A stretch of DNA of 64,000 nucleotides from Acarospora socialis. Its lineage: Eukaryota > Ascomycota > Lecanoromycetes > Acarosporales > Acarosporaceae. The stretch spans positions 1,178,001 through 1,242,000 of the forward strand of contig JAMYGW020000012.1 in assembly GCA_025617375.2 (NCBI GenBank), given 5' to 3'. A program made the position numbers and the translations under genes. Position 1 is the stretch's first letter. Each line of letters begins with the position of its first letter. Below the pieces are notes generated by a model. The model searched no databases. It was not told the DNA's origin and saw nothing but the letters and a program-made list of their open reading frames with translations. Of this stretch, positions 7,386 through 39,426 are shown piece by piece.

Positions 7386-7817
7386 AAATGTCTCCGGTCT
7401 ACCCTGATCTCTTCAAATCGCATCTAAATCTACCCTTTTTACTAATATCTCCCCCCACTGAATTTAAGGCCTAAGTTTAGGCATCTAATTTAGGTGCGGG
7501 CATATCTATAGGTAAGATCATAAGGTATGTAACAGTTTTGGTAGTAAGGATTAGACTTGAGATAGATGTCAATTAGTGAAGAGACTTAACTTAAGTCTGA
7601 CTTTAGAACAACATTAGACATGAACTTACACGCAAGCTTAGACACGACCTTACACAAGATCTTAGGCATGAAGTCAAGCATATAAGTCTGAAACTCTCTT
7701 ATATGATCAGCGAATCTTGCACCCAAACTTAGGTTTTATATTCAGTGGGGGTAGATATTAGTTAATAGGGTAGATAGAAATACGATTTGAAGAGATCAGG
7801 GTAGATCGGAGACATTT
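7386..7817. mobile_element. 432-bp foldback / MITE-like element with ~80-bp imperfect terminal inverted repeats
   Basis: The left arm (7386 to about 7470) starts AAATGTCTCCGGTCTACCCT. The right arm (about 7733-7817), read in reverse complement, starts AAATGTCTCCGATCTACCCT, and the two stay alignable for roughly 80 bp, including TGATCTCTTCAAATCG and CCCCCACTGAAT. The interior is AT-rich with repeated short cttaggcat/tttaggcat-type motifs and no ORF. This is the form of a non-autonomous foldback or MITE-like DNA element. No clear target-site duplication was found next to the ends, so the exact termini are uncertain. Confidence 0.8.
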
Positions 7818-9822: not shown

Positions 9823-11635
9823 TTACCAGATCATTGTCATCGAGCCCAACGTCAGCACCACCCACTTCACAGCACCGTGCTCATCTTTCAGAGGCGTCCA
9901 ATGCGTTGCGAATTTCTCGTTGCCCCGCATGGCAGCGGATCGGCGCGTCGAGAGGTTGATCTCGGACGAGATGGCACGGCCGTGCTTCAGAGATTCTTTG
10001 ATCCTGTTCTTGAAATCCTTACTCATGAAGGGTGCGTGTTGAGCCAGAGTCCTGAAGATATCACTCCCAACGAAGGGCGTACCGGCCTTGGGGTTGATGA
10101 TGAGCATGTCGAGTATGTCGGGGGAGTAGAACTCAATCGTGAAACTGTCGTAGCTCAGGACCAGATACTGTGACGTGTTAGCCGCATCCCACGGAGTATC
10201 AGGTGCTACAGATGGAGGTTGTAACGCGGTATAGATACCTTTGAATATGCAGTGTAGAACATCTTCATCTGTGTTTTCAGGTTCATATTTTCAATTCGGT
10301 TCAGTAGCCCCTGTTCCATGCCAGCCTCCCGTACATCGGCTGTAACCTTGTTGCTACTTCGCGTTCGGAAAGATTTGAAGAACCCTCTAGGACCGCTTGA
10401 ATCGCCTCGGGTCAATGGGGGTGGCGACAGTGGGATCTTCTCTTCTTCGGGCTCATCAGAGATAGACAATACACGCAGAATGTCGGAGCAGTTGTGGATG
10501 GTTGTCGAGCAGTTGATCTGTCCGCCTAGGTAGAAAGCCACCTTGCCATCTCCGCCGTACAATGGCGCTGAACGGTGCATTAGCGGATCCGCATATCTAA
10601 ACAGAGTTTCTGCAGTCGGAGCCACTTACCGACATAAAGCAAATTCCAGAACGGTTCGCCGTTTTTTCTATAGTTAAGCAGGAGTTCGACACTCTCCTGT
10701 TTGCTATCAATCGCGACTCTTAATCTCTTCACGGCGGCGATGTCCGTATATTTGCCCTGAAGGAATCGACAATTTCGCGGTATGATATCAGTCCGGGAGT
10801 ATCCTGTAACCTTGATGAATCCGTCCGATGCGAATACGATTGGATTATCAGCCTTGCTGAATGCGGCTCAGTCAGTACGGTATCCTAGACGTCCATGGCT
10901 CTTCGAACACTCACGCGGGATCTGTCAGACAGAAACAGTCACCAAGACCAGCGTATCTGCCGCGATCGCTGGAGAGCGCCTTCACCGCGCTTGTCGTCAT
11001 CTGATGCTTAACAAAGCGTGGATAGATATCCGTGGCTAACAGTTTCTCGATATATTCCTGCGCATCGGCGAAGATAAGCTCCATTGCCGGAAGCGTGGAT
11101 AGGGTGCTGGATTTGATGTCTGCATTGATCCTCTTCATCATTCCTTGAGAGAGGTTCAATTGTCTCGGCGCATCGATCGAGGTGAACTGGCGATGTATGT
11201 CCGACATCACCTTCGTCAACTCGTCCAGAAGGGTGTTGTAGCGGTCCACCTTGTCCCCATAAATCCATAAGCGATGAACCAGTTCCCGCTGGCAAAGGAG
11301 AGAGGGTGAGGCAGACGAACCTTTTCTAGAAACTCCATATTCTCCCCGCAGAACCGGGACTGACTGAACTTCAGTAGCTGATGCGCCGTTGTTGGATTAT
11401 GCAGTACGATCTGAAAAACTTCCGGACTGAAGAAGTCGGCGAGACCAGCTACACCTACGCCAGCGACTCCATTGGATTTCGTGACCGAATCTGCCGTTCT
11501 GAGATTGTGCCCGTTCGGAAGGCTTTTCTCCGCCGGCGATTCTCGCCATTGCACTGGCTTTTGACTGCCCTCATTATGTCTGTAAGGGCTATGGGTCGAA
11601 TCGCCATTGAGACGCACTCCTTGGTTACTCTGCAT
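9823..11635 (-). CDS. RGS-LOV blue-light photoreceptor, copy 1
   Basis: Five exons: 11321-11635, 10915-11249, 10630-10856, 10239-10567 and 9823-10167, about 516 aa, all junctions in phase. After a ~65-residue disordered start comes an RGS domain (DFFSPEVFQIVLHNP, LLKFSQSRFCGENMEFLEK, DRYNTLLDELTKVM). Then a complete LOV domain: NPIVFASDGFIKVTGYS, IIPRNCRFLQG with the photoactive cysteine at about residue 246, NYRKNGEPFWNLL, and FYLGGQIN with the flavin-contacting Gln. A linker carries a basic-aromatic stretch (GFFKSFRTRSSNK). The C-terminus is a second PAS-like domain (YLVLSYDSFTIEFYSPDILD). RGS domains act on G-alpha subunits; LOV domains bind flavin and form a cysteine adduct in blue light. 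Known fungal RGS-LOV proteins (BcLOV4 of Botrytis) bind membrane in light. Pro replaces the usual Gly before RNCRFLQ. Confidence 0.9.
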
Positions 11636-13396
11636 GATGACGCTGGAGGTCAACACAAAGGCGACGTGCTGGAAGGGGATGGGTTCGTTGATTTGATGTA
11701 CGGAGTAGACATACGATATAATCAGGTGAAGCGGTTGCGGGCAGAACAAGCTATATCTCGCACCTGACTAGACCAAATTATTAGCGCAATCGTACCACCA
11801 CCAGATGAGAAGGGTAAGGTTACTCCGCACAGCCTGTCCTGGTGTGACTTCGGTGTTGGCTGCGTGCAGTATTTCTGAGGTTGGGATATGCCGTCAAAGA
11901 AGCTCACTAAGGTATTCACAGGAGCGGCTTTCCTTCGAAGCATGCGGAGTTGACCCCTGTGCCGTCGGTATGAGCTAGCGGGCCAATATCAATCTCGAAC
12001 CGCGAGTCAAATTATCAAAAGCTTCTTGCCCATTGGTGTATTTTGCTAGAATATGCAGGTATATCGCGATCTGATCTACACAGTACTCGTACGATCGTCG
12101 ATCTCAAAAAGCAAGTCTGGCCGGGAAGCGAAAAATTGTACGCTCCGTAGTCTTAAAGTATCAAGAATTTACCTGGTAGGGTAGCGTTACCTTTTATTCA
12201 AATCCTCCTCGGCCGTTAATATTGAGGAGCGGACGGTGGTTTCGAATGTTCGGCAGAGTGCGCCCCTTCGTGGCTTTCGGGCAGGAATAGTATTGGTCTT
12301 GTATGAGCGCCACACTACTGAAATATAGTTCCGTACATGGGGCTAGAAACATGCTCATTGAATTAGGCCCTTTCCAAATAGAGAATGATTCGAGGGCGTC
12401 TGGGCGACGTCAAGATGGCTAGTCTTCAATTCATGCCATGCCATGTCATGGGGGGCCAGATTGACAGCGGAGTAACTTAAGACAAAGACTCTTGCGGTGG
12501 TGGTGTGACTGGCTGGGCAGACGTAGGTAGGTAGGGTTCTGTAGTGGAAGAGAAGTGTGGGCCTGAGCTCGCTCAAGTTGCTCATCCAATGCTTAATCAT
12601 GATTGCGATTGCGGTAGACCACAATCCAATGCTTGAACACACTGACACAATTCGCCTGAAAGTTCAGTTCAACAACCTCTCAAATTAGAAAGGAAAAGCA
12701 ACAAGGCTACAACTAACGGAGTACATAAAAATGTAAGTTTGAAGGCCCAAGAAGTTGTATAGAAACCCTATAAAATTTTCATACAAATGTGGGCTCAAAC
12801 GTGAATTTAGACATTAATTCAGCGCTGATTTTAGATGTGTATTTTAGGCATAAGTTTAGGCATTAAAGCCTGAAATCACTATCTGTTTAGGGATGGTCTA
12901 CGGTCAGCAAACCTATGGTCTATGAGTATTTGTTGGAATTAGGAGGTCTTTAGGAGTTTCAACCCTATCCAACCTAGCGTCGGGGTCCTCCGTGTCACGT
13001 GATACTGCTTAGTCATCACCCACACAAGTTATCCTTTGTGTATTCTAGTCTTCTACACAATTCTAATATCAAGCAATAGAAACGTTCCAATAACAGTATT
13101 GAATTGTGGTCTACCGGAATCACGGGCCTTAATCTAAGCTAGGTAGCTCGATATTCCAAAAAGGCACACATCACATCAAGTCAAAATTAAGAGGCAAATT
13201 TCGCGCCCCCTTTAGGAGTGACTCAAGCGTGCAAACAACAAACCAAATATAAGATGATCATGACTCGAGCGAGGCTTCAGACTGACTCAATACAACGGCG
13301 GTGCGCAGCAAAAGATGGCAAGAACCAAACAAAATCCATCGCTGCGGTTTGGACATGTTCATCCTATCAGTCGGACATAAAATGATCCCAACAACC
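11636..13396. other. AT-rich intergenic region with short repeat relics
   Basis: No gene recognised in 1.76 kb. Around 12780-12900 the sequence has repeated tttaggcat/taagtttaggcat motifs like those inside the 7.4-kb foldback element, suggesting a decayed relative. The rest is featureless to the eye. It includes the RGS-LOV promoter and the DUF6594 3' end. Confidence 0.45.
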
Positions 13397-14774
13397 TTAC
13401 TTGAACTGAACTGGTTCATTGCACTTTGAGCCTACATTACCCAGAAACACCACAAGGACAGCACAATAACTTGCATGCTGTCAGTCCATGTTACAGGAAG
13501 GAGTGAAGCATCAAGAGTACTCACGCAGCAGCAGCAGCAAGGATCTCATGTCTCCTTGCTTTCGTAAAGAGCGAGAGGACAGCGGAAAACGCGAGGGTGA
13601 AAACGAGGAGTACGCCGATGCAGATCGTGTAGGAGCTTCTAGTGCCAATATCGCCTACCAGATGGTATAGGAGAGTAATGGGTATGACAAGTAGAGCAAG
13701 GATCGCTAAGATGATGATGCTAACTGCAGCGCGTTCAATCCGTTCTCGGGTATAGTAGACTGCTAGGCCGTGTGTTTTTTGCTTTGTTTCTGCGGAACAG
13801 AACAGGTACTACAAAGGGTCAGCATATATACCAGAAGCCAGTCCGATCCACTTGTGCAGCTTACCTCGACGAACCTTTTGGCTCCGAGGCTGCATTGCAT
13901 CCACTTTAGAAAGTGCTCAATACCTGCGTCAAGCCATGCATGCTCTCTCCCAGCTCTTAAAGTAACCATATCTTCTCTATGCTGAATCCACTGAGCATCT
14001 TTGGCAATCAGAGGTTTGTTATGGTCCATGTAGTTGACAACACTTTGGTAATCACACGGAGCGGGTTTGTTGAAAGACACCAGTTGTTGAGCGATAACCA
14101 TAAGACTACCTATCTCACGTCAAGAGGGAGTTGAGCAGTCAGAGAAGCCATTACGCACCGTACTCGCGGAACTTTTCCTCGATTTGCTTGAGCAGCTCCC
14201 TCCTAGGCGCAGCATCCTCTTCCTTGAGATCTGTAGTCTGCAATCTTCTAGGATGATGACTTGCATCGAAGTCATCCATGTTATCCAGCCTCGTTTCCAA
14301 AGCTCGCAGCTCGCCCTGCTTGTCCAGCAGCAAGCGGGCTTGGAGGTAGCCAAACCGACGGTAAACCATAAAGCATTCATCGCTATCGAGAAATGTGGCA
14401 ACGTTTGGGTATCCTTCAGGACATGATTTCACTGACCAGCGCAATCAGCAACAGTATGGTATCAAACTTGCATATATCTCTCACACTGTCTCACGACTGC
14501 CTTGACAGCTTTATTTCTCGCTTTTGGTCGAAGTGCCTCGAGCACAGCAGACAAATATGGAGAGAACAATTGCCAGACACCGCGATGGCGATCCTGTGCG
14601 TCCTATAAGCATTCAGTTCCAATATATTGCATGCAACCCAACCTGCCCTTTGATTGTCCAATAATGGACTTTGGGATTTCGATATGGATGCTGCCGAAAC
14701 AGTTGTCGGTGATGTTGCGGATTCACTAGACAAACCTTCTTCCATGGCCCTAAGTACTCGAGCATCGGAGACAT
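13397..14774 (-). CDS. DUF6594-type membrane protein
   Basis: Six exons: 14643-14774, 14485-14593, 14159-14431, 13865-14109, 13525-13808 and 13397-13469; 371 aa with every junction in phase. After a variable N-terminus comes the family core: GYPNVATFLDSDECFMVYRR, FGYLQARLLLDKQGEL, a polar helical stretch, VIAQQLVSFNKPAPCDYQSV, then EDMVTLRAGREHAWLDAGIE. The C-terminus has three membrane helices (VSIIILAILALLVIPITLLY; YTICIGVLLVFTLAFSAVL; AYCAVLVVFLGN). This is the layout of the fungal DUF6594 family, function unknown, expanded in many ascomycetes. An ATG four bases upstream (14778) opens a different frame; only the 14774 ATG joins in phase to the conserved exons. Confidence 0.88.
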
Positions 14775-14973
14775 CCATTTGATTCAGAGTCACAATTGAT
14801 TCGCAACACAGTATTGAAGCTATTCATCGACTATCCGATGGTCAAGACTTGACTAGATATGCCGATATATATATATTACCATGAAAACTAGCCTTGCAGC
14901 ACAACCTGTCCAATTGATTGCCTTGTGTTTGTATGCCCTACAACCTGAATAATATGGCTCCCAAATCAACTTA

Positions 14974-15352
14974 TCATGCAGAGTTACTCAATCTTTCTTC
15001 AGCCAGAAACTGGCCGGAGTTCACAAGTTTTTCATTGCTGTCTTTCACCTTGTAACTCCATTTGCCCGACTGTGCGTCTTGCTTTCGGTCTACGATGGTC
15101 ACCAACATGTTTGGCCCGCCGGCAGTCGATTCTAACCAAGCAGACTCGTCAACTTGAAATTGTGCAGGAAACTGCTCGTTCCATTAGTAATGAAGTAATT
15201 TGAGGCTGTGGAGTAAGGTAGACTTGCGCTGGCGGGAGTATTGGTATTATTGGCCGAAGAATAGAAGGCGCGACTGTCCGGGGGCTGAATTCGGCGTAAG
15301 GATGTTTCTGGACATGTGAATCTCTGATACTTACCGGCTGTGACTGCGCCAT
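14974..15352 (-). CDS. Small 71-aa protein, unknown
   Basis: Two exons are proposed: 15335-15352 (MAQSQP) and 14974-15171. The donor is a strong GTAAGT; the acceptor GAGCAG is preceded by a TTACTAAT branch site. The product continues FPAQFQVDESAWLESTAGGP, then NMLVTIVDRKQDAQSGKWSY, KVKDSNEKLVNSGQFLAEER. The balanced composition and regular spacing of W/Y/V look like a small beta-rich domain. A retained first intron followed by a shorter second one is also frame-compatible and would lengthen the N-terminus. The gene ends 200 bp upstream of the DUF6594 start on the same strand. No family name is offered. Confidence 0.6.
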
Positions 15353-15974
15353 CAATCGATCGTGTATTGTTCGGTCAATCTTAACGCCAGTTGATCGTGT
15401 TTACGCCTTGTTCCTTCCTGCTTGTGCCAGCAGAATACGCCTTGCGAGATTTTTCTGTCTGATGAGCTTGAACCGAAATAGCAATAACAGACAAGGCAGA
15501 GCTTCCTGCCTTATGCTCGAGCCAAAGAAAGATAGATTCGGCGTTTTCCGTTGCTTGTTTAGGCTGCAAGGCATGCAACCACAACGTTCGATGCGTGAGT
15601 GTGGGTGGGGCTCAAGGTCGGGTAGGACGAGGCTCTTCAACCGCAAAGTCGACCTTGCGCAAAGAACATCCGGGGCCCAGCATGACCAAGCCACAGTGAG
15701 CTTTCCAACATGACCAAGGCACAATGAGCTTTCCGCATACAAAGAGCAATGCGCGTGAGAGCCCCAGGACGCAGAATGGTCACTGATGAGCACTGGCAGA
15801 ACAAGCACAGCCTGATGCGTGCAGCAATCGCTGTACTCGCAGGCGATATATCTCGAGGAATTCCTTGGAAAGAAAATCAAATTGATATCGTACCTTTGAA
15901 TTTCGGTGCTGCAGATTCGCTTCCTCCAAGGAAACCAATTGGCTCGGGGCAACGTTACGTGCAAATCTGGAAGA
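15353..15974. promoter_or_regulatory. Divergent intergenic region
   Basis: 622 bp separate the 71-aa gene (leftward) from the caspase-like gene (rightward). A 196-aa ORF on the minus strand here is Cys-rich and has no exon signals or conserved motif, so it is not called. Confidence 0.4.
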
Positions 15975-17531
15975 ATGGCAAGCTTCGCCAACTCTCAACC
16001 CAGCTCTCCTGAGGGTTTAATAAACCAAGCGGAACAGACTCGTCTTCAAATCCTTTGGGAGAAGACCACGGAACACCCTACTAAGTTCGTTCATTATGAG
16101 AAAGTCGCAGTCCTGTTGCTGTCGTGGGATGATACCTGCGATGATCTCAAAACTAAGCAGGAGGTACGCTTTGATATTGAGTGGAGCTCAATAGAAGTAA
16201 TCACTAACATTTTATAGGTGGAGAAACTTGCAGCAGTATTCAGAGACATGTACCATTTCGAGGTCAGGCAAGAAAAGCTGAATCATAAGGAGCGAGCACA
16301 AGCTCAAATGAATGAACACCTGGCGACATTCGTCCGCAAATACGAAAGGCAAAGCCATAGCACCTTGATAATCATCTACTACGCTGGCCATGGATGGTCT
16401 GATGGAGCTTCTCGTACCACCAAAAGAAAGCTGCGACTGGCAGCGTATGACTCTACGACACCCATGAAAGTTCAACTGCTGATAACCTGTGGCAGTAACA
16501 CCTCCCAGAAAGCGCTAGATCAACTAGAGCGAAATAGCGTCATGTGGGAGCGAGCCGAGAGCAACATTCAAGGGGCAGATGTTGACGTTTTCCTGATCTT
16601 TGATTGCTGTAATGCAGGCATGATTTCTCGATCAGGAACCAAGAGTTTTCAGACTCTTGGCGCGTGCTCACCGGACGCAACGACTCACATACCGGGAGAG
16701 TCGTCGTTCACGTCGGCGCTCATCTGGGCTCTGGAGCAGCTTCGCATGAGGAAAGACAAGCCCTTCTTTCCGTCCTCGGAACTACGGCAAATGATCACAC
16801 AAGCGCCGAACTTTCCGAAATACCAGCATCCGGTGCTATCCGACCGTTTGCCGAGCTTGGAACACATCGTTATCGCCCCTTTGCCAGCAGATAACACGCC
16901 GCTTGAAATCCCAGCTGACCAGAAAGAAGACTCGGATCGCTTTGCAGAGCCCTCCTACCTCGATCTCCGGTTCCATTGTGACACGCTCGACGACAATGGC
17001 ATAAAAGACGTTGCGAAGGCCCTTAACAAGCTGTTGATGGACCGTCAGCTCTCTGTACGCCGTATAGATTTCCTTGGTAAGAACTCCATGTGGAAATCAG
17101 GGCAGTGGCAGTCAGTGTCGAGAATAGGGCAGATTTGGTATGACTTCGCAAAGGCGACAAGGCTCCGAAGACAGCTGGTCCCCGAGGGGGTGGTCGCAAT
17201 AGGGCTTACTCCAGCGCCCATAACTCGTGGTCCAACCAGTAATATAGTCAATGATGGTGGAACCGAAGATACCGTCTTGACTACGTTCGGCGCAGCTGGC
17301 GGCAGAAAGCCTCGACTTTTGGAATCAACGCGGAACGGGAATTGCGAGCAAGGTAGCGCGGATACTCAAAGCTCTGCAATCCAAACACGAGGTAACGGGC
17401 CGCAAACGAATGGGGCGGACGCGTGGCTGACAGGCATACAGACCACGGTCAGATTGGAGAGAAGAATCATGAAAGCCGTAAGAAGCAACCTTGACCAATA
17501 CCCTGTTCACGGACAGCTTTCCGCTATATAG
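15975..17531 (+). CDS. Stand-alone caspase-like (peptidase C14) protein
   Basis: Two exons: 15975-16163 and 16218-17531, joined in phase, 500 aa. The p20-like fold is visible: VAVLLLSWDDTCDDLKT, then VEKLAAVFRDMYHFEV, then TLIIIYYAGHGWSD with the catalytic His at about residue 121, and VDVFLIFDCCNAGMIS with the catalytic Cys at about 194. Both members of the Cys-His dyad are present. A second conserved block follows (DLRFHCDTLDDNG, DRQLSVRRIDFLG), then a low-complexity tail. This is not a classical metacaspase: there is no Pro/Gln-rich prodomain with YxG motifs. It resembles the caspase-like domains found alone or at the N-terminus of fungal NLR-type proteins. A role in regulated proteolysis or incompatibility-like cell death is inference. 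Confidence 0.82.
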
Positions 17532-18379
17532 ACGGCGAGTTGCCAAACCTGCACCTTTCGACCCTGGAGTTAGGAGTATCTGGGCGTACCGGTCTGGCTC
17601 TTCCATTTATTATACCCGAATCTTGTCCAATCGAAGTCGCTTTCTCTCTTCTTCCCACCTTGTTTTGATGCAAATAAATTCAGTAGCGCAGACTATGCAG
17701 TTACAATAAGAACGACGCAAATGAGATCCATATGGGGGTCCATCGGAATGATGTTACTGCCGTGCGGTATGCCTACGCTTTTCCTTTCATTTCGCTAGTC
17801 TGGGACCTTTGGAGAGTTTCATCAAATGTCGAATGACTTACGCCGATAATCTCATGCCGATAAAATTGAAGATTCGAAAAATTGGGATTAAGTGCATGTA
17901 TAATATGCCTCGAGGTTTTAATATGGCACCCGTAAAACTAGTATACGTGTTTTCGTTTGTCCACATCCGCAGGGTCCACAGGTTATGGACACTACAGGTG
18001 GATAGCCGCATATTGAAATCCCACTATCTAAGACCAAGTCCAGGGTGGCACTGACAGATTTTGTATGAGAGCGCAAGTTTTACAGGGCTAATGTAGAGGG
18101 TTTTCCCATATGCAGCTATCCACCGACTGTATTATTCGACTAAGGGCAGGTTTAACTGACATCTATCTGCAATTCGATAGGCAATTTGGGCCAGAAGCAC
18201 AGGCTGCCATTTCTCGGGCTCGCTCAGCCACGACTCATCTCGCTCTCAGGACAATACGGACTTGCTCCCGTCTAGGACAAAACCAGATGTGGATGAGAAG
18301 ACTTTTCGTTCACAACTAACAGAGGTAGGTTTGATGGTCCATCTCAACCCTAGTACTATAGTCCTGGTTTTATATCTCA
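17532..18379. other. AT-rich intergenic DNA
   Basis: No gene, RNA or clear repeat recognised between the caspase-like gene and the Ulp1-like relics. Confidence 0.4.
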
Positions 18380-19245
18380 ATGCCATATTCCAATCCCGGA
18401 GCACTTCATTGCATCAAAATGAAAACAGAACACCAACTTGAAGATTTCCACATTATATGGAGGACTTCAGAACAGTCTGTTGATCAACGAATCGAAGTTT
18501 TTGAACCCATGGACAAATTCTGTTGGAGGGCTCCCCATACATATACCCACCGGCTAACAAGCATACCTCATTACATTCACCCTTCTGCCTTCATGCAGTC
18601 CTCCATCATGTCATTGAGGGCAGTCATGCACCTATCTCTGGCCACTACCAGTGCACCTGGTTGAAGAGTCCCTTAGAGCTTGCCCAGTGCTCCGTATATC
18701 TCAGCTCTGGCTGATGCAATTCTGCTCCCGCATTCGACGGCTCTTCACATGAAATGTGTGTCACTGTTTTCAAACTATTGCAGCTATCGGGGGCGGCTCC
18801 TGGGTCACACCTGCAAGGCATTACCTGGGAATTGGAGCAGGCATACTCTCATCAGCAGCGCAACGGCGATGATTGTGGCGTCTTTGCGATCAGAAATGGT
18901 GTTGCGGTATTTCAGGCTGAAGACATACGCACTCTTGAATATAACGGCTATGCACTGCAGCTCGACTACGCCATACTGCTCCGAGGTACGCCATTAGCTG
19001 GCAAAGAGCAGCAGACCAGCCAGATACACGCGTCACAAATTAGAATCAGGCCTGCAGAGAAGACACCGCCCACCCAGAGTGTCGCTGAGAAACATGATGG
19101 GATTTATCAAGGAATGTTTCAGAACGACGGGTCTCCAAATGTGCTGCTCGAAGAGGGTATGAGCCAAACAATAACGGAACCAGAGACAGATTCGCCATCG
19201 TTGACGGTTGTGAACCGGTGGAGGGATGGTTTGTTGATAGAATGA
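18380..19245 (+). pseudogene. Decayed Ulp1-type (C48) cysteine protease fragment, copy A
   Basis: The part from 18754 reads QQRNGDDCGVFAIRNG, the Gln-x-Asp-Asp-Cys-Gly block holding the oxyanion Gln and nucleophile Cys of Ulp1/SENP proteases, followed by about 110 residues to a stop at 19245. No His-Trp block is found upstream in frame, so the N-terminal half is missing or scrambled. The stretch around 18590-18680 resembles copy B near 20690-20770 at the nucleotide level. It is unlikely to encode an active protease. Ulp1-like domains often ride in fungal repeat families, so this may come from an element, but no transposase is visible. Confidence 0.6.
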
Positions 19246-19286
19246 GGGGAGCCAGTTGATGACCGGGTTCTAAACCTGTGGAGGGA
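19217..19286 (-). repeat. Inverted-orientation copies of the 53-bp minisatellite
   Basis: Two ggtggaggga/tgtggaggga units about 60 bp apart. In reverse complement this stretch (ccctccacaggtttagaac, then ggtcatcaact) matches the tandem repeat at 20895-21060. Confidence 0.55.
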
Positions 19287-19499
19287 CCCCCACTCGGTCA
19301 ACATGCGACCCTCCGGTGACAATACCTTCTATCAAGCTACTGTCGACAGTAGAGTATCTCGCGGAATCCAATAAAGCAGTACCCTTTCTCCATCTGTCTG
19401 ACGCTCTACCATTACCAACGGTCGAGAATCTACCGGCAGACGTCCATATGTCGATGACACCCCCTTCAGATAGGGTCCATGTCACCTCCGAGAAGCCTG

Positions 19500-20895
19500 T
19501 CCGCTGAGATTAATGACAACCCTATCGCCATTTCAGACCCGCCACTCCTACCCGCGTCGTTATCGGAGCGGCCGAAGTCACCTTCCTCAAGCCAGCATCC
19601 ACCGACCAATTGACGTCTAAGAGAATCACCGGCGTTACTGATAGACCTGTCACCGTCTCGAACTCACCCATACCATCATCCTTACCATTAGACGCATCCG
19701 AACTTACCTCCACCAAGCCATTATGGTCCTTAGATGCAATCAAATCAATCGACGCAGGCAACGCTAATCGGGATAGATTGTTGCGGGACCTATTACTGGA
19801 AGGATATAAAATTGCGTTAGTCATTGATGGCATCCCGAAAGACCTTACCAATCCTTATTATGTTGGCGAACTCCGTGCTCAGATCCAACCGGCAGATCTG
19901 ATGAATCTATTGCCAACGCAAGGGCTTACAGATGAGCTTGTCACCGGCATCCTCGGAATCTATTCAGCACACCGACACAATGTCGTTTTATGGACTGCCA
20001 AGTAGCATCCTGTCGTCTTCGTCCTCCTTTCGAGCGGCTATCTCCTCAACTGGTGCTCCATACAGCAGTGGAAAGATATCTTTCCATAATTCGAATATGT
20101 GGCCCTCCTTGAATTGCTCATTGAGGAGCAATTAAGCAAAGTCTTCACTCATCTCATGGGCTTGCTGATTTCGAGCCGTAACATACTGAAGTCGGATTAG
20201 TGACTAATAAAGAAGGAAAAGAGTCAATATATCTTATTGAGTTTTCGCAGTGAGGACCAGAATTGCTTCAAAATGCCCATCTCCTGCAGCTGAGCGTCAT
20301 CTATGTTTGCAGCAAACCGTTGTAGCCTCGTTGTTAATGGATCATCTAACAGCTCGGATTTATATCATTGGCAATAAGCATTCTGAGCCTGCTCTTTTGA
20401 AACCTATCAAGCTCGGCTCAAAGGTTTTCAACCTTGGGTTTTAGCGATTAATAGTGCCAATGGTGATTGAGTTCAATCGCCACTACGTTGATAGCACACC
20501 CTTGGACAGAATGACGGGAGCGGCCATGCCCTCTGCAGTAACAATCAGCCTACAAGAAGGGGTTGATACTTTGCTGATCCCGGCGAATGTGGCACACTGC
20601 CATTGGATCCTCCTAGTCGCCCAGGTCAATGCAACGACTGCCACAGGAAGTATAAGCTGGAACAATCTGCTAACCCATCGCCTTCATACTTCTGCATTCC
20701 TGCAGTCCTCCATCATCTCATGGAAGGCAGCCATAAACCTATCCCCAGCCACTACCAGTGCATCCACGGTCCGGAGTCCTCCAAACCTTGCCAACCAGCT
20801 CAACTCGCGGCAGCCCCCATTAGAACGATCTACAGCGATGAGGTGTTCCAGTTCGAGATCTATGTCTGCAAACTTAGCGTCATCGAGATAGACCT
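19500..20895 (+). pseudogene. Decayed Ulp1-type protease fragment, copy B
   Basis: An open stretch at 19610-20005 ends in LMNLLPTQGLTDELVTGILG, which fits the region before the catalytic His in Ulp1-like proteases. Further right, around 20590, AHCHWILLVAQVNATTATG matches the catalytic His-Trp block. The parts are in different frames and separated by non-coding sequence, and the Cys block is absent before homology to copy A resumes near 20690. The copy is broken in several places. Confidence 0.55.
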
Positions 20896-21060
20896 CCTCG
20901 TTCTACGGAGGCCCTCCACTGGTTTAGAAATCATCATCGAGTAAGGCTCCTCATTCTACGGGGTCCCTCCACCGAGGTAGAAACGGTCATCAAGTAGGGC
21001 TCCTCAATCTACAGAGACCCTCCATTGGGTTAGAAACTATCATCAAGTAGGGCTCCTTGT
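20895..21060 (+). repeat. 53-bp minisatellite, three full units plus a partial
   Basis: Units start at 20895, 20948, 21001 and 21054. Each has the form tcctc-n-ttctacgg, ccctcca, ggttagaaa, tcatcaagtagggc with a few differences. The exact 53-bp spacing is seen directly. Confidence 0.85.
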
Positions 21061-21180
21061 TCTAGGCAGTCCTTTGGTACGACTTTAGTGGTGAGAGTAG
21101 CTGCGCAACAGAGGACAAATGATGCAGTCGGGGGAGTGGGTCAAGTGAGAGCTTTGCAGCGTCGCTCTTTTCGCGGACTT

Positions 21181-21230
21181 CCCTTCTCTTCACTGCATCC
21201 CTTCTCTTCGCTGCATCCCTTCTCTTCTTC
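21181..21230. repeat. 18-bp tandem repeat
   Basis: The unit cccttctcttcrctgcat starts at 21181, 21199 and, partly, 21217. Confidence 0.8.
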
Positions 21231-22078
21231 GAGGGCCGTCCCTTTTTCCGGATAGATGTCAGCTCAGTCGAAAATAGGTCGTGCTTTTTCTACTCACAGC
21301 TACCATTATCAGTACAGTATGGCCGGAGCTGGTGACGCTGGAAGAGGGCTAGAAGTCTGTCTGTCGGTGGTTTGGGGTTGCAGGTCTGACCGGTATCGTA
21401 AGAGTACAGTCACGGTGATTATTCCACGACAAAACAGTGTCGCTGTCGGAAACGTACCCGTAAGAGGAGATAACTGTCTCTTTTTCTCTGCCATATACGA
21501 TAAGCGAGTTGAGGGCTTGAACCCATGGCGCGAAACTCGTCCGAGATTAGACTTATCGTCACCGACTTTTTCCCCGCAGGAGATGATCTTCCAAAGATAT
21601 CCCGCCAGACTTCATACTTTCGGTCTTCCAGCGTTGCTGGGCTTCTTGCTTGCTCTTCCGGTTGGGCTTGAAGCTTTGAGCTTCCGGTAATGCTGGCGTT
21701 CGGGCGTTGAGCAGATAGCTTCATCGCCGCAACCACAGATTGAGACCCGTTCAACGTATTTCATGCATAAGGAGTGGCACCAGGGTCATAATACTGTAGA
21801 AGCTTGACTATCTCTTGCTCAAAACGCTCTATGTAAACGCCAGCCAGCGTCCCAACTATATATAGCACCTAAGAGACTTTTGCCTTCTCACTCGTAGGGG
21901 CAAATTATATCAATGCCTACCGTATGCTTGCGCCTTGCCGGTCATCAGAGCATATGTATTTCCGTCAAACCTTCTGTTCGGCAGGTTGCCATTTAAATTG
22001 GTGTAGAATCATCAGAGCGTAGACTTGCTAGAAACCTGTCTATTGCATAAGTTACTCCGAGGTAACAGTAGAGCCGTT
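21231..22078. other. Intergenic region, no gene recognised
   Basis: Overlapping ORFs of 144 aa (plus) and 111 aa (minus) at 21256-21754 show no domain or exon support. The rest has no visible feature. Confidence 0.35.
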
Positions 22079-23641
22079 CTATATCTCCAATGCAGGTGCC
22101 CACCTAAAGTAGTAGAGCAGGTTTGCCGCGAGTTGTCCCATTCGACAGCTCATTTCCAGTGAACTCACGACCTCCTCGCCGGCTCCAGTATAGAAAACGC
22201 CATCTGCTATCTCAATGTTGTCCAGCAAGGCAGCATTCGAAATGCCAGGGGATGCATGAGACCAGCTCTGATGGTGTATCCATTGGATTCCGAGATCCGT
22301 AAGAGTGCTATTTTGTGGTTTGCCGAGGAGCTTCGCTATGAAGCCATCTTTGACTGGAGCGGCAGTGACTAGCCGGTAGAGGTTCTCGCTTTCTGCGATG
22401 CATCCATTTAGTGGCAAATAGGCTGACGAGGAGTCGATGCTAAAGAAGCCAGGGTCAGAGGCTATACCTCTCGTCGTGAATATCTTGTCGGGTATCTTAT
22501 CTGCTGTGGACACATTGAAGAAAGATGGCGAGAGCGTGTCCGACTCACGGGATGTAAAGTGGGTGACGTGTCTCTCAACGTACGGTGTCAAAGCGTGGGT
22601 AACGTGAACGCCCAAGTCCAAGTCCAGCCCAGCTCCTTGAAGGGGGGTGGCAATGATGATGGCATCGTACTCCACTATCTCAGTGATTGGCGAGCGGTCG
22701 GGACGGTCTCTGGTTGTAACGGTGAGCTGTAGCGTTCCATGGACTGATCTTTTGATCTGAGTGACCCGGGTGTTAAGGTGTAATTCTGCTCCGGATAACT
22801 TGAGCAACCTGTCGATTAAATTGTAGTTTCCCCCGCTCACAGGCTGCACAAAGTCGACATCGGCAGGGTTCATAGCCACAAGGGCAGCGAGTCCATTCAT
22901 ATCGTCGAGATCCTGCGCAAACCATGCACGAGCTGTGGCCTGGACAATGTCCCTCGAAAAGTCGGATGAGATTCGATTACTGAGTAAATAGTTCGCTGCG
23001 GAATGTATTTGTTCACTTTTAAGGCCTAGGTTCTCAAGAGCCTCTGAGATGTTGCGGTTAGCATATTCGAAGGCTCCAGACAGCTTATGTAACTGAGGAA
23101 GCTTTTCAGCAACCAAATCGTGGAGGCGGCGAGGAGACAGTCCATATCTCCAAAAAGAGCGGACCAAGTCACGCCATGTTGTCGACTTGAGGTCTTCGTC
23201 TCTGTAAAGAACGAAGCTCTCCCCGGTCCATACCCCGACTCGCTTCTTCCGTGGGTAGTGCGGCTCCAATCTCTGCCTCAAGCCAACCTCGTCGATCACA
23301 CTCTGCAAGCACTTGTCATCTGAATAGAACGTAGCCGCCCCAGCCTCGACATGCTGTGACCCATAAGCTCCATCATAAACTTTAACAGATTTGACCCTGC
23401 CACCGACTTGGGAGCGTGCATCGTAGACTGTGATATCGATGGCAAGCCCAGGACGGTGCTGTTCTTGTAGGCGGTATGCAGCAGATGCACCTGCGATGCC
23501 TGCTCCAATAATAGCAACTCTCTTGGAACTGCCATTATTGTCGGCATCCGGACCGTGCAGGGTCATGGGAATTTGTTGAGGATCAATGCTAAGTGCGAGT
23601 GATGCGATAGAAAGAAGAGAAAAGACGATGTTAGAGGCCAA
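22079..23641 (-). CDS. Prenylcysteine oxidase-like secreted flavoprotein
   Basis: Single open frame. A hydrophobic N-terminus (NIVFSLLSIASLALS) looks like a signal peptide. It is followed by the FAD-binding motif VAIIGAGIAGASAAYRL, an acidic VYDARSQVGGR strand end, and EAGAATFYSDD, as in prenylcysteine lyases. The C-terminus has DGVFYTGAGEEVVSSLEMSC, the second flavin-contact block. Prenylcysteine oxidases cleave the thioether of farnesyl- or geranylgeranyl-cysteine released from degraded prenylated proteins, usually in a lysosome- or vacuole-like compartment. Odd point: the frame has no ATG ahead of the signal peptide. The open frame begins after a stop just upstream, 23641 is TTG, and the first in-frame ATG (23566) would discard the signal. 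No GT-AG exon join supplying an ATG was found. Confidence 0.82.
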   Translation of the reverse strand: MASNIVFSLLSIASLALSIDPQQIPMTLHGPDADNNGSSKRVAIIGAGIAGASAAYRLQEQHRPGLAIDITVYDARSQVGGRVKSVKVYDGAYGSQHVEAGAATFYSDDKCLQSVIDEVGLRQRLEPHYPRKKRVGVWTGESFVLYRDEDLKSTTWRDLVRSFWRYGLSPRRLHDLVAEKLPQLHKLSGAFEYANRNISEALENLGLKSEQIHSAANYLLSNRISSDFSRDIVQATARAWFAQDLDDMNGLAALVAMNPADVDFVQPVSGGNYNLIDRLLKLSGAELHLNTRVTQIKRSVHGTLQLTVTTRDRPDRSPITEIVEYDAIIIATPLQGAGLDLDLGVHVTHALTPYVERHVTHFTSRESDTLSPSFFNVSTADKIPDKIFTTRGIASDPGFFSIDSSSAYLPLNGCIAESENLYRLVTAAPVKDGFIAKLLGKPQNSTLTDLGIQWIHHQSWSHASPGISNAALLDNIEIADGVFYTGAGEEVVSSLEMSCRMGQLAANLLYYFRWAPALEI

Positions 23642-24686
23642 AATTCTGACTCCAGATGATCAAAGGGTATGTTCTACCAGCAGGTGAGAAAGGAAGCGAT
23701 ACATAAATAACCCCGTTCTGAAGGGCTGTGCCTTGCGGCGTGATGCATGAGGTAGGGCGAAGCTCAGAAGGACACGCATCCAATGGGATAGGCTCCAGAA
23801 CACCACTAGAGCAACTGTACTCTGGCTACAAGGAACCATTTAACATAGAGTCTTAATGTTTGTTTGTCCACCTCGATTTCTCCCGGCACTGCGGCGTTTA
23901 ATGCATAATTAGGGCCTTTCAGTAGTCGCACGGTGTGAGCACGCTGTGTTAGCCTGAGCTTGCAGCGGTTCCATTAATAATAACATACCTGCATGGGACC
24001 AGTTAAAGTTACCTGGTACTTGGGCGGCCGACACCTCAGTGTGTCACGTGCAGGTTATGGTACGCTTGCCTACTGCTTTGTTGGCCGCGGGATGCCTAAC
24101 CAGTAACCATGGAGAGTACTCATAACAAGTTGTATGGAGACCTCTGTGGTAACTGGCGTCCACATCCGCATGCATAAGTGTAGGCGGGCAAGTCGTTGTA
24201 CAGGATATGTCCAGCTCTTACAGCCACAGTCGCCGAGATGGCAAGTGATCTACTTAACCCCAGCAAGGGCTGCAACTAAATGTCGACCTTTCCCGTCACC
24301 GGAGCGAAGGACCCCAGGCTTATCTTGCATGTCCGGCATCAAACGGCAGGGTTAGCCGTACTCGCAGTGCAGCTGAAGGGGTACTGCGGACTGTACATGT
24401 ATGCAGGAATATAAGTACTCGTCATGAGATGGGGTTCGAGATGCACGGCAAAAAAAGGCATGTTGATCCATGTAGACCATTCCGTGTCTTTCCAGTAATC
24501 TTCCTTAGTAAGTCATGGCCCCCTTGTAAGTCAGATAATCGATCATGTAGTCTATTTGCCCAGCTTCAACCCATCATTTGCTTTCCAGGCGTCGCTACCG
24601 CCATCGGTTTAAGCTCTGGCTGCCCGCGCTCACACTGGCTCTCCTTTCGCTTCGCTTTGCAACGCGCTGTCCATGACTTGCATGGA
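23642..24686. promoter_or_regulatory. Divergent intergenic region
   Basis: Lies between the prenylcysteine-oxidase gene (leftward) and the second RGS-LOV gene (rightward). Part of 24429-24686 is open in frame with RGS-LOV copy 2 and could be its N-terminus. Confidence 0.4.
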
Positions 24687-27173
24687 ATGGTACCTCATAT
24701 TGAGAATATGCCGCATCCCGACGTCCAGCGAGAACCCAATGACCAACGGACGCCAACGCAAATCGATCTCCAACTGCGCGAGTTCAGAATCAATGCCGAA
24801 AGCGTGCCAAAGGTCCAGGAGATTCCACATGCTGATCAATTCGGTCGTCCGCGAAACAAATCTGCGAATTCACAGCGCTCAGCATTCTCGGTGATAATGG
24901 AAGAAGACGCTGAATCTTCGCAGATTGGGTCACCGGAAAGGTTGGCTCAGACACCCTCTCATCCTACCAGGTAGGTAGCTTGTTCTTATTAGCGACACGA
25001 GCACAGACTTACCCCCGGACATAGGTTTGATCAGCAAGATATTCCCTATGAGTCCTCGAGCTCTTCACATACGTCTATCCGCGGACACTCTCGAAAGCAC
25101 TCCTCCGCCTCCTCGGTGGAGACCTATGAGACCAAGGCCACATCCACTGTAACAGCGCAACATGGCAAGACCGTTGAGGGAGCCGAAACGATGGATTCGG
25201 TGCCGGAAGACGAGGCAACGTCTTACGATCTTGCGCCGCCTTTGGAAGAAGGCCAGAAATTACACACTATGGAGACACTCTCCGATATCCTGTTCTCCCG
25301 AGAACATCTACAAACTATATTCGCGGATCCATCTTTGTTACTCAAATTCACGGCCTTTCTCAGTATATACCGGCCTCGATCTGTGCCTATTCTAATATAT
25401 TATCTTGATGCGATGAAAGCTCTGAAAGCAATCAATTATGCGAATGCGCTCGCCGAAGCTCTTGAGCCAATCGCAGGCTTCGATTTTACAATCTTCCCTG
25501 CGAAAACGACGATGAATTCGGTGTTGGAGGACAAAGCTAACCAAGCTTTCACGGTGCTTGTTCAAGAGGATTTGCCAGCCTATATCACGCATATTTACGT
25601 CCAGGTGACCCACTCGAGCGTGGTTAGACGAATTACAGGGGCAACAGCTCTCCGGTCACAGGACGCCTCCGATGGACTGGCTGAAATCTTTTGTCTTTCG
25701 GACCCTTCACGGCCTGACAATCCTATCGTCTTTGCTTCTGAAGGTATTGAGTCACACATCTCCGGGGTTGTGCGAGGTCATTATCGTCGCTAATGACTTT
25801 TTAGAGTTCACCCGGACGACACAGTATGGCATGAGCTATATCATCGGACGCAATTGCCGCTTTTTGCAAGGTCCCAAGACCAGCCCCTTCAGCGTCCGTC
25901 GGATACGTGATGCAGTTGAAGCTGGCAGGGAGCATTGCGAAGTCTTCTTGAATTAGTAGGTGTGGGAGATACCAGCTATACGATAACCTGCTGACCGCAA
26001 GCTTGGTAGTCGTCGGGATGGGTCACCTTTTCTGAATCTTCTCATGTGCGCCCCATTGTACGACAATTCTGGTAAGATCAGGTACTTTCTTGGAGCTCAA
26101 GTCGACATCAGTAGTACGGTCAACGAGGGCACGGATCTAGACTCGCTGCAACGCTTGGTGGAACAGAAAGAACGAGGTGGCGAGCCGAATGCGAGCGATG
26201 AAGAGAAGAAAGATGAGTTTCAGCAGTTGAGTGAGATGCTAGATATACAGGAGCTTAATGCGGTTCGCAAGTGGGGAGGGCGTATGCTGCAAGAAACTCA
26301 GGAAGAGGACAACAGCTCACACAAGATGAACTGGCGCAGGCCGACAGTACTACTAAGAGACCCTTCTCGTGATCATATTAAAACAAGCCCACCAAATGGT
26401 GGCAGTATCGGTAGCGTGGCTGGATTCTATCACAATGTAAGTCAGATGGCTTTGCCCCGCATCAACTGCTGATTTTGTAGTATTTGCTCATTCGGCCGTA
26501 TCCGTCATTACGTATCCTCTTCGCTTCTCCGTCCCTACGCGTGCCTGGTATCTTACAATCACCACTTATGAATCGGATCGGCGGCAGCGCCCGAGTGCGG
26601 GATGAGCTCACCCAGGCGCTTGCAGAAGGTAGAGGTGTGACCGCGAAGGTTCGCTGGGTATCGAGGCCCGACGACGATGGCCGTAACCGTTGGATTCACT
26701 GTACTCCTCTGTTCGGTAGCAATGACCAGATTGGCGTCTGGATGTTGGTGGTTGTGGACGACGAACAGGATGAGCTGAAAAGATCAAGACAGGCTCCACC
26801 AGTCCCGTCCAATATGAAGACTGCTCATGCCATGTCAATTACCGCGGGGGGTGTCAGTCCGGGTCAATCTACCTGGCAACTCAACTCAGAAGCCGAATTG
26901 GATGCTATAAGTGGCTGGGCCGAATCGAACGGTACAGCCGAACGTCGAACGAAGCCATCAGACTGGACTTTGGCCGCGCTGAGACGAGATGGGACGAACA
27001 ACAACAACACTGATACTGAAGAGGACGAAGAGGGGTATCAGACGCTCGAGGAACGTTTGGCAACCCGAAGGCGCTTAGAAGCTGAGCGCATGTATGACCA
27101 GCCTGGATCCGCCATTCCTCTCCGTCGAACCTACAAGTCGCTATCACCATATCCATTTAGCTTGGACGACTGA
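24687..27173 (+). CDS. RGS-LOV blue-light photoreceptor, copy 2
   Basis: Five exons: 24687-24970, 25025-25743, 25805-25955, 26010-26436 and 26481-27173; about 757 aa, all in phase. The start may instead be 24429 (843 aa). After ~200 disordered residues comes an RGS domain (METLSDILFSREHLQTIFAD, LLLKFTAFLS). The LOV domain reads NPIVFASEEFTRTTQYGMSY, IIGRNCRFLQG with the photoactive Cys at about residue 352, NYRRDGSPFLNLL and YFLGAQVD. An acidic/basic linker with an amphipathic-looking ELNAVRKWGGRMLQ leads to a PAS-like domain (YLLIRPYPSLRILFASPSL, then RWIHCTPLFGSNDQIGVWML) and a charged tail. Intron positions inside LOV match copy 1, so the two are paralogues. Expected role: coupling blue light to G-protein signalling, possibly at the membrane. 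Confidence 0.9.
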
Positions 27174-34880: not shown

Positions 34881-37584
<2,704 letters not shown>

Positions 37585-38559
37585 TCATGCTGAGATCTTC
37601 AGTTCAGACTCAAGAGCGCGCTGCAGAGCTTCCTCTTTCTGCTTCAGTTCTTGCTCTCTCAAGAATTGCGCAAATTTCGAACGCGGGTTGTGGATGCCAC
37701 ATTCCGTCTTCTGCTGCCCCTTCCATCGACCGGCACGCTCGTCTTCGGTTTCTTTGATCGGCTGTGTCGAGTGCCAGTCACCCACGCTCTTGTACCCTCG
37801 ATCGAGTAGTTCGTTGTACGGGACATCGTTGGCTTTGACGTACTCTTGAACCTGCTTGAACGTCCAATTGGCGAGGGGGTTGACTTTAATGAGACCAGCC
37901 TCATCGACTTCAATGACGTCGAGATCGCCCCTTTTCCCTCCCTGACTGCGTCTCCGCCCTGTCAAGACGGCGTCGACTTGCAATTCCCGATAGGCACGTT
38001 GCGCTGGCTCAACCTTTGCTACCCAATCATACAGCTGCTCGTTCATCTCCCAAAGTCTCTCGCCATACTTGGCGGCAAATTCTTCTGGTGTCTCGACGCC
38101 GTCGGGTTTGTAGATATGTACGGTGACGAGGGGATATCGCTTCCGAACCCGCTCGACAAGGGAAAGTGTCTCGGAGAAATGATGAAGGGTATCAAGAAAG
38201 ATGAGATTGACGACTTGTGGTCTCGGTACTTTCAGTTTCGACAGCATGTCGAGAGTCACCAAGCCAGTCATCCCAAAGGCGGTAGTCTGAAAGAGATTGG
38301 GAAGGGTGGTGATGCACCATCGCAAGATTTCTGACTGCGGGTTAGGACCTGTTATAACATGGCAGTCAGGGGTATGTTTTGTTGACATACCTTGTGGCTC
38401 AAGGTTTTGCAATTGACGATTCAAGAACTGGAGATGAGGTTTGGTGAAGTAGATGTCCGGGGTGCTGGCTTCGCTGGAGCTGGCACTTGCGTAGCCGGAT
38501 TCCAGTTCTTGCCTGGACATGCTCTCGCTCTCAAAGACTGGGTATGATCGGGATGGCAT
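37585..38559 (-). CDS. MET16: PAPS reductase (phosphoadenylyl-sulfate reductase)
   Basis: Open frame of 324 aa from the ATG at 38559. An internal 42-nt segment (38349-38390) has GTATGT...ACAG ends and a CTGAC branch-like site. It is a multiple of three, so splicing gives 310 aa without a frame change and is more likely, since the segment is not conserved-looking. Core: LRWCITTLPNLFQTTAFGMT, LVTLDMLSKL, VNLIFLDTLHHFSETL, VLTGRRRSQGGKRGDL, LIKVNPLANWT and the catalytic TECGIHNP with the redox Cys. It lacks the paired-cysteine iron-sulfur motif of APS reductases, as expected for the PAPS-specific class. Reaction: PAPS to sulfite with thioredoxin. Tandem with MET3. Confidence 0.95.
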   Translation of the reverse strand: MPSRSYPVFESESMSRQELESGYASASSSEASTPDIYFTKPHLQFLNRQLQNLEPQGMSTKHTPDCHVITGPNPQSEILRWCITTLPNLFQTTAFGMTGLVTLDMLSKLKVPRPQVVNLIFLDTLHHFSETLSLVERVRKRYPLVTVHIYKPDGVETPEEFAAKYGERLWEMNEQLYDWVAKVEPAQRAYRELQVDAVLTGRRRSQGGKRGDLDVIEVDEAGLIKVNPLANWTFKQVQEYVKANDVPYNELLDRGYKSVGDWHSTQPIKETEDERAGRWKGQQKTECGIHNPRSKFAQFLREQELKQKEEALQRALESELKISA

Positions 38560-39426
38560 GACGAGTTTTTGAAGAAGGCCTGGATGCGATGAAATGCAGG
38601 AAGAAACAATACCACTGTTGGAGAGAAATTGAGAGGGAAGTCTATAGTTCTATCGAGTGGGGAAAGGAAAGGTAATCCAGGGGGGGCTGAACGAGATAGA
38701 ATGACACCAGAACGTGCCTTCAGCTTATGCAAAGAAAGAGACAGTAACTAGTAGACAAGAGGAAAGACGACATTACAAACACTCTGCCAGCGGTGTCTTT
38801 AGAAATCAAGGGAGTGACATATTACTGGTAGTATTCCGACATGGCTCATGGTAGTGGGCCTTATAGTTGGTTGCGTTTTTCTTTGTAGCGATTGCGTGAT
38901 CGGTACGCTCGGCCGATTTCGCCTTAAAGCCAAATCTGACCTTACCTGTCCTTCAACCTCTCCCTCTCCAGTAACAGGTAGCGTGAAGGTCATTATTGCG
39001 GGAGGTAGGGAACAGTCTTGATTATGTCACTGCCCTCAACGGTGTGGAGCTTATGAAGCATCTCCGGGGCTCTTTTGAATGAACTTGGAGGATCGCCAGT
39101 ATGCACGATTCCATCACCCCGTCGTCACGTCAAAACTGCGCATCAACGACGCATCAACGGCTGTCATGTTTCCTGCCAAGTATAGCTTTCTCATATGCAG
39201 TAATCTTCGACACGATTGCATACATAGAAGAGGTGCAGATATGCTGCCAATACTATGCGACCAAATGCGGTGGTTATTTGAGATGGAGTCCGCCTCGGTC
39301 GTCGGTTACGGCACGCTAAAGTAGCCTCTATCGCAGAACGGCATAAGCGTCAGGGACTGCCGCCGATCATTCAATGATTGAGCTAGGATGATGTCCTCGA
39401 ACTTATGACGAACTCAACAAGAAGAC
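38560..39426. promoter_or_regulatory. Divergent region between MET16 and SER2
   Basis: 867 bp shared upstream region; no specific element recognised. Confidence 0.4.

Follow-up and report, generated by a model that had tools for sequence, protein, structure and literature searches.

Two LOV receptor genes, one with and one without a detectable RGS domain, lie close together in Acarospora socialis

Introduction

Fungal genomes frequently encode additional LOV proteins of two types, those with an RGS (regulator of G-protein signalling) domain and those without recognisable regulatory domains (PMC10056346). Here we describe two LOV receptor genes, hereafter A and B, within a single 64,000-nucleotide stretch of the Acarospora socialis genome (GCA_025617375.2, contig JAMYGW020000012.1, positions 1,178,001 to 1,242,000; "the window"), and compare them with the described fungal systems, whose features are given as they appear in the accessible portions of the papers cited. 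Both types occur in Magnaporthe, Botrytis and Fusarium, and in the same portions Aspergillus and Neurospora are listed as genera where they were not found (PMC10056346). In Botrytis, BcLOV3 is classed as a short-LOV and BcLOV4 as an RGS-LOV protein (PMC12941744). In V. dahliae the accessible text gives the gene names rgs-lov and lov-u, as names only (PMC7493669), and in Z. tritici it reports an RGS domain for Zt_Lov1 and not for Zt_Lov2 or Zt_Lov3 (PMC9512790). Because LOV proteins with and without RGS have already been described together in several fungi, such a pair of kinds is, as far as these accounts go, known as such (PMC10056346, PMC9512790, PMC12941744).

RGS-bearing LOV proteins comprise BcLOV4, LovB, MoRgs5 and Zt_Lov1. 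In BcLOV4, an N-terminal RGS domain is described as followed by a LOV domain with RNCRFLQ, then a basic linker and, last, a C-terminal domain; according to a review, the protein seems to be restrained by its own RGS in the dark, and lipid binding in light is a speculation put forward for the polybasic amphipathic linker that separates LOV from the C-terminal domain (PMC8993538). MoRgs5 carries RGS followed by PAS/PAC (PMC3248559) and reportedly binds two of the three G-alpha subunits, its mutant having more cyclic AMP (PMC10056346). The two types also differ in expression: bclov3 is light-induced via BcWCL1, whereas bclov4 is the sole blue-light receptor gene that is uninduced (PMC10218500), and lovA is light-induced via White Collar whereas lovB is not (PMC10056346).

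Results

We consider it likely that the window holds one member each of the two known fungal LOV kinds, gene A as an RGS-LOV gene and gene B as a LOV gene without RGS. Both have five exons and their 5' ends face each other, with start codons 13.05 kb apart, and the pair spans 17 kb. This agrees with an earlier note on this DNA, which had placed two LOV genes at 9.8-11.6 kb (minus) and 24.7-27.2 kb (plus) in that orientation. Both gene models were built by hand, and their introns are short and of the GT-AG type:

11635-9823, minus strand: gene A, RGS-LOV, 516 amino acids (516 codons) in five exons; Pfam RGS 6.4e-15, PAS_9 2e-16
11635-11321, 11249-10915, 10856-10630, 10567-10239 and 10167-9823, minus strand: exons of gene A, hand-spliced at GT-AG sites
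24687-27173, plus strand: gene B, LOV without detectable RGS, 757 amino acids (757 codons) in five exons; Pfam PAS_9 1.3e-15
24687-24970, 25025-25743, 25805-25955, 26010-26436 and 26481-27173, plus strand: exons of gene B, hand-spliced

For the first intron of gene A, a version of about 32 bases was dropped by eye in favour of one of 71 bases (11320-11250), because the longer version restores RGS-like sequence. The 5' end of gene B is uncertain, its reading frame being open upstream as far as 24258.

Protein A combines three elements whose order matches that of BcLOV4:

11001-11416, minus strand: RGS domain, residues 74-188, split by intron 11320-11250; PF00615 6.4e-15
10509-10940, minus strand: LOV domain, about residues 209-312, split by two introns, with Cys246
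10344-10397, minus strand: basic stretch of the linker, residues 350-367, net charge +5; candidate membrane-binding segment

The N-terminal RGS domain typical of the BcLOV4 kind is evident from the Pfam match and from the Protein Data Bank (PDB), where a search with the RGS region by itself yielded 27 distinct solved sequences (E up to 0.1); almost all of them bear the name of a regulator of G-protein signalling, and RGS7 ranks first (1.4e-9). A and RGS7 have the EN, NL, D and YPRF residues in common, which we take to be residues that contact G-alpha. The photoactive cysteine, Cys246, lies in RNCRFLQG and aligns to that of phototropin. After the LOV domain, residues 350-367 have the top combined moment-and-charge score anywhere in the protein, and from what is described for BcLOV4 they are a candidate for membrane binding (PMC8993538). 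Gene A thus fits the BcLOV4 type well, as the earlier note had proposed, the likeness being one of described layout. A is shorter than LovB (516 versus 663 amino acids; PMC10056346) and differs from the BcLOV4 kind by a proline, Pro243 (10778-10780, minus strand), where glycine precedes RNCRFLQ; its motif reads PRNCRFLQG and the cysteine is retained. In the forward frames of 81 fetched loci, described below, this residue was glycine in 75 of 76 motifs and proline in none, the 76 having been obtained partly with a pattern permitting either residue. A, a new RGS-LOV protein with proline in the LOV motif, is possibly a variant useful for kinetics.

Protein B carries the same LOV motif behind an N-terminal domain that the earlier note took for an RGS domain:

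25245-25676, plus strand: N-terminal domain, residues 169-312, no RGS signal
25683-26115, plus strand: LOV domain, about residues 315-420, split by two introns, with Cys352

The LOV domain, with its photoactive Cys352, is the only domain that Pfam recognised in B. Pfam searches were run to E up to 10, a range in which HMMER filters discard most matches above about 0.1, and in these the full protein gave no RGS match; with the N-terminal region alone, neither PDB nor Pfam gave any match at the same limit. Its alignment to the RGS domain of A is locally no better than shuffles (425 of 1000 reach the score) and globally little better (86 of 1000). Scored with a two-sequence RGS hidden Markov model (HMM), the region reached 1.1 bits; of 200 shuffles, 7 scored higher and 3 the same. 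No counterpart to A's EN, NL and YPRF residues is visible in B. Two single-sequence structure models of the N-terminal region were too poor for use (mean predicted local distance difference test 38.0 and 43.4). Judged by sequence, B does not appear to contain an RGS domain, and the earlier note's reading of RGS in both genes is confirmed for A but not for B. A decayed RGS is possible. If B were an RGS-LOV paralogue of A whose N-terminal fold had diverged past detection, perhaps without activity as a GTPase-activating protein (GAP), one would expect what is seen in the rest of the two proteins, namely LOV domains that are each other's nearest relatives among 46 rows, weakly similar C-terminal domains and a last intron of equal position and phase; a local match of 23 columns where the RGS starts (FSPEVFQIVLHNP in one protein, FSREHLQTIFADP in the other) points the same way, at an hhalign E of 0.056 and a probability of 1%. 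Set against the database searches, the shuffles and the absent contact residues, we regard this common RGS ancestry as unlikely. The earlier note's picture of two light-gated G-alpha regulators is unsupported, because B has no detectable RGS.

By layout, B resembles the BcLOV3/LovA kind: like LovA (674 versus 757 amino acids), it has one LOV domain and no recognised RGS. Zt_Lov2, Zt_Lov3 and lov-u of V. dahliae, as far as the accessible descriptions go, may belong to the same kind. The linker after the LOV domain, basic in A, has a net charge of -3 in B.

The LOV domains of A and B are alike. Both keep RNCRFLQG, as the earlier note had seen, and further along they have N, N and Q, presumably flavin contacts, where the LOV domains of phototropin and aureochrome have them; they are identical at 57 of 117 positions. 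Their best PDB matches reach 8.3e-30 (A) and 3.8e-29 (B). Plant phototropin and algal aureochrome share the LOV domain and these aligned residues with A and B, but neither a kinase, as in phototropin, nor a bZIP, as in aureochrome, was matched by Pfam in A or B. In a LOV tree of 46 rows, A and B group together with support 99/88, on long end branches (0.57 and 0.86). The rows are 42 of 81 fetched loci (hand-thinned and non-random), phototropin, aureochrome, A and B, with no other fungal LOV, so all that the tree shows is that A and B are closer to one another than either is to these outgroups. The 81 loci, which serve only as outgroup, came from scans with a two-row LOV alignment: the best 80 of 310 confirmed among 596 stretches of bacterial contigs, and 1 locus confirmed from 48 stretches of viral contigs. 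The BLAST margin is narrow, A scoring 121 bits with B and 119 bits with the best bacterial LOV. When viral contigs were scanned with exon 2 of B and with exon 2 of A, no relative was confirmed among the 7 candidate stretches for the former or in the single candidate for the latter.

Gene structure and the C-terminal domains add a second line of comparison:

9823-10167, minus strand: C-terminal domain of A (exon 5), weakly similar to that of B; no Pfam match
26481-26819, plus strand: C-terminal domain of B, encoded by the first part of exon 5; the sole intron position shared with A precedes it

The matching introns that the earlier note reported for the LOV region turned out to be wrong. Those of A lie at residues 217 (phase 2) and 293 (phase 1), equivalent to positions 323 and 399 of B, whereas those of B lie at 335 (phase 1) and 385 (phase 2). 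The one coincidence is the last intron (SK|YLVL in A and HN|YLLI in B, both phase 0). The C-terminal domains that follow it are weakly alike, their score being reached by 8 of 1000 shuffles locally and 4 of 1000 globally, and Pfam (E up to 10) gave no family for either; the claim that both proteins end in PAS-like domains therefore holds for the presence of a domain and not for its class. The tree above supports an old common origin of the LOV domains, and the similarity and the one shared intron weakly suggest the same for the C-terminal domains. The old duplication proposed in the earlier note is thus retained for these parts and not for the N-terminal domains.

Several observations weigh against assigning A and B to the two known kinds with the functions of their relatives. 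For A, Pro243 might alter flavin binding or cycling, the basic patch has a modest hydrophobic moment (0.30), and MoRGS5 could be deleted without visible defect, the authors of that study suggesting that its role may be independent of G proteins (accessible text of PMC3248559). For B, the placement beside BcLOV3 and LovA is one by domain layout, and Zt_Lov3 offers a further candidate kind. The short hhalign match above is a hint of RGS homology in B, and B also has a basic stretch, its best-scoring one, at N-terminal residues 53-70 (+4). In the promoters (1.5 kb), GATCGA occurs once upstream of A and twice upstream of B (window mean 0.95), and GATCG four times and twice (mean 3.2). Taking GATCGA and GATCG as White Collar motifs, these counts do not separate the promoters of A and B.

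With the assignment to the two known kinds, a working model can be drawn from the residues described above and from the behaviour of BcLOV4 and its relatives. In the dark, the RGS part of A would mask the basic linker; in blue light, a flavin bond at Cys246 would free it, and the freed linker could bind anionic lipids of the plasma membrane. There, the RGS domain would speed GTP hydrolysis by a G-alpha and so lower G-protein signalling. In B, light would switch the LOV domain at Cys352, and the flanking domains may relay the signal through some contact; B is probably not a G-alpha GAP. By analogy with bclov3 and lovA, we infer that gene B would be light-induced through the White Collar complex and gene A would not.

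Between and around the two genes, the window holds the following:

13524-14444, minus strand: DUF6594 gene, PF20237, three open reading frame pieces (7.6e-20, 5.6e-7, 1.7e-17)
16218-17528, plus strand: caspase-like (C14) gene in a long open frame, PF00656 4.6e-6, with YYAGHG and DCCNAG motifs
22082-23659, minus strand: prenylcysteine lyase/oxidase-like open frame of 526 codons, of which 22082-23569 matches PF07156 at 1.6e-42

The YYAGHG and DCCNAG motifs are presumably catalytic. Of the accessory genes named in the earlier note, the caspase domain and DUF6594 were recovered, whereas for the supposed Ulp1 relics two open reading frames and one longer stretch gave no Pfam match. The prenylcysteine lyase/oxidase-like frame, absent from that note's gene list, is divergent from gene B with a gap of about 1 kb (window 22082-24687), and the two may share a promoter region. 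Among the reading frames that recall Ulp1 peptidases, whose tried pieces had no Pfam match, lie a direct repeat of 92 bases (18564-18655 and 20671-20762), with copies 80% alike at a distance of 2107 bases, and three tandem copies of a 53-base unit (20894-21052). The interval has a GC (guanine plus cytosine) content of 0.488, versus 0.512 and 0.526 in the flanks. Dinucleotide indices are used to read repeat-induced mutation; one is slightly raised in the interval (1.30 versus 1.17 and 1.13) and a second gives no clear difference. Outside the interval, an inverted repeat with 96-base arms at 7386-7817 (88% complementary, 240 bases between) is possibly a small mobile element. Sulfate assimilation is represented by ATP sulfurylase and PAPS reductase matches close together (34884-38649, minus strand), the ATP sulfurylase also having an APS-kinase domain match, and a DHHC palmitoyltransferase gene is present as well; such genes and the short GT-AG introns suggest the chromosome of a filamentous ascomycete. 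Rfam gave 0 matches at gathering scores.

Discussion

The genes are ordinary in kind, and only the closeness of the pair is unusual. That close linkage is real. In the literature searched, of which coverage was partial and included few subscription papers, we found no report of closely linked RGS and non-RGS LOV genes. The earlier note's view of the linked pair as an undescribed system therefore holds, within that literature, for the linkage but not for the pair of kinds, already known from the accounts cited above.

Why the two genes lie together can be read in more than one way. The window was chosen for showing the linkage, and the following figures are to be read accordingly: in an assumed genome of 30-40 Mb, two given genes would lie at most 15 kb apart with a chance of about 0.001, and any of 10 pairs with a chance of about 0.01. 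Low as this prior is, we lean towards a later rearrangement that brought A and B together by coincidence and without functional meaning. The DUF6594, caspase-like and prenylcysteine lyase genes between them have no evident photobiology and take no evident part in light sensing, and in other fungi the two kinds occupy separate loci: the accessible text gives distant locus tags for LovA and LovB in three Fusarium species (PMC10056346), and the tags of Zt_Lov1 and Zt_Lov2 start with 2 and 1 (PMC9512790), which we read as different chromosomes.

The same closeness, with the head-to-head order and the 99/88 grouping of the LOV domains, would also be expected if the linkage were a relic of an original inverted duplication that gave rise to both receptor kinds, retained here and broken up elsewhere. 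The long branches and mismatched LOV introns, however, indicate an old divergence. To our knowledge, fungal gene order is rarely kept over such old divergence, and the separation of the pair in Fusarium and Z. tritici, as far as tags and tag prefixes tell, together with the choice of a window in which the linkage was visible, further lowers the weight of this explanation, which we hold to be doubtful. An extension of it seems highly improbable to us: with both receptor kinds arising by a single inverted duplication and the head-to-head order preserved here, B would have lost G-alpha binding while keeping its LOV and C-terminal domains, could pair with A and, once induced by light, would tune or compete with the RGS-LOV protein at the membrane, making the two a linked effector-and-brake pair.

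The fungal role of RGS-LOV proteins has been little studied (accessible text of PMC10056346). These proteins are natural light-driven membrane binders and are employed as optogenetic tools, and gene A may add a variant to them. If the linkage in Acarospora socialis were ancestral, the origin of both receptor kinds would be tied to one duplication.

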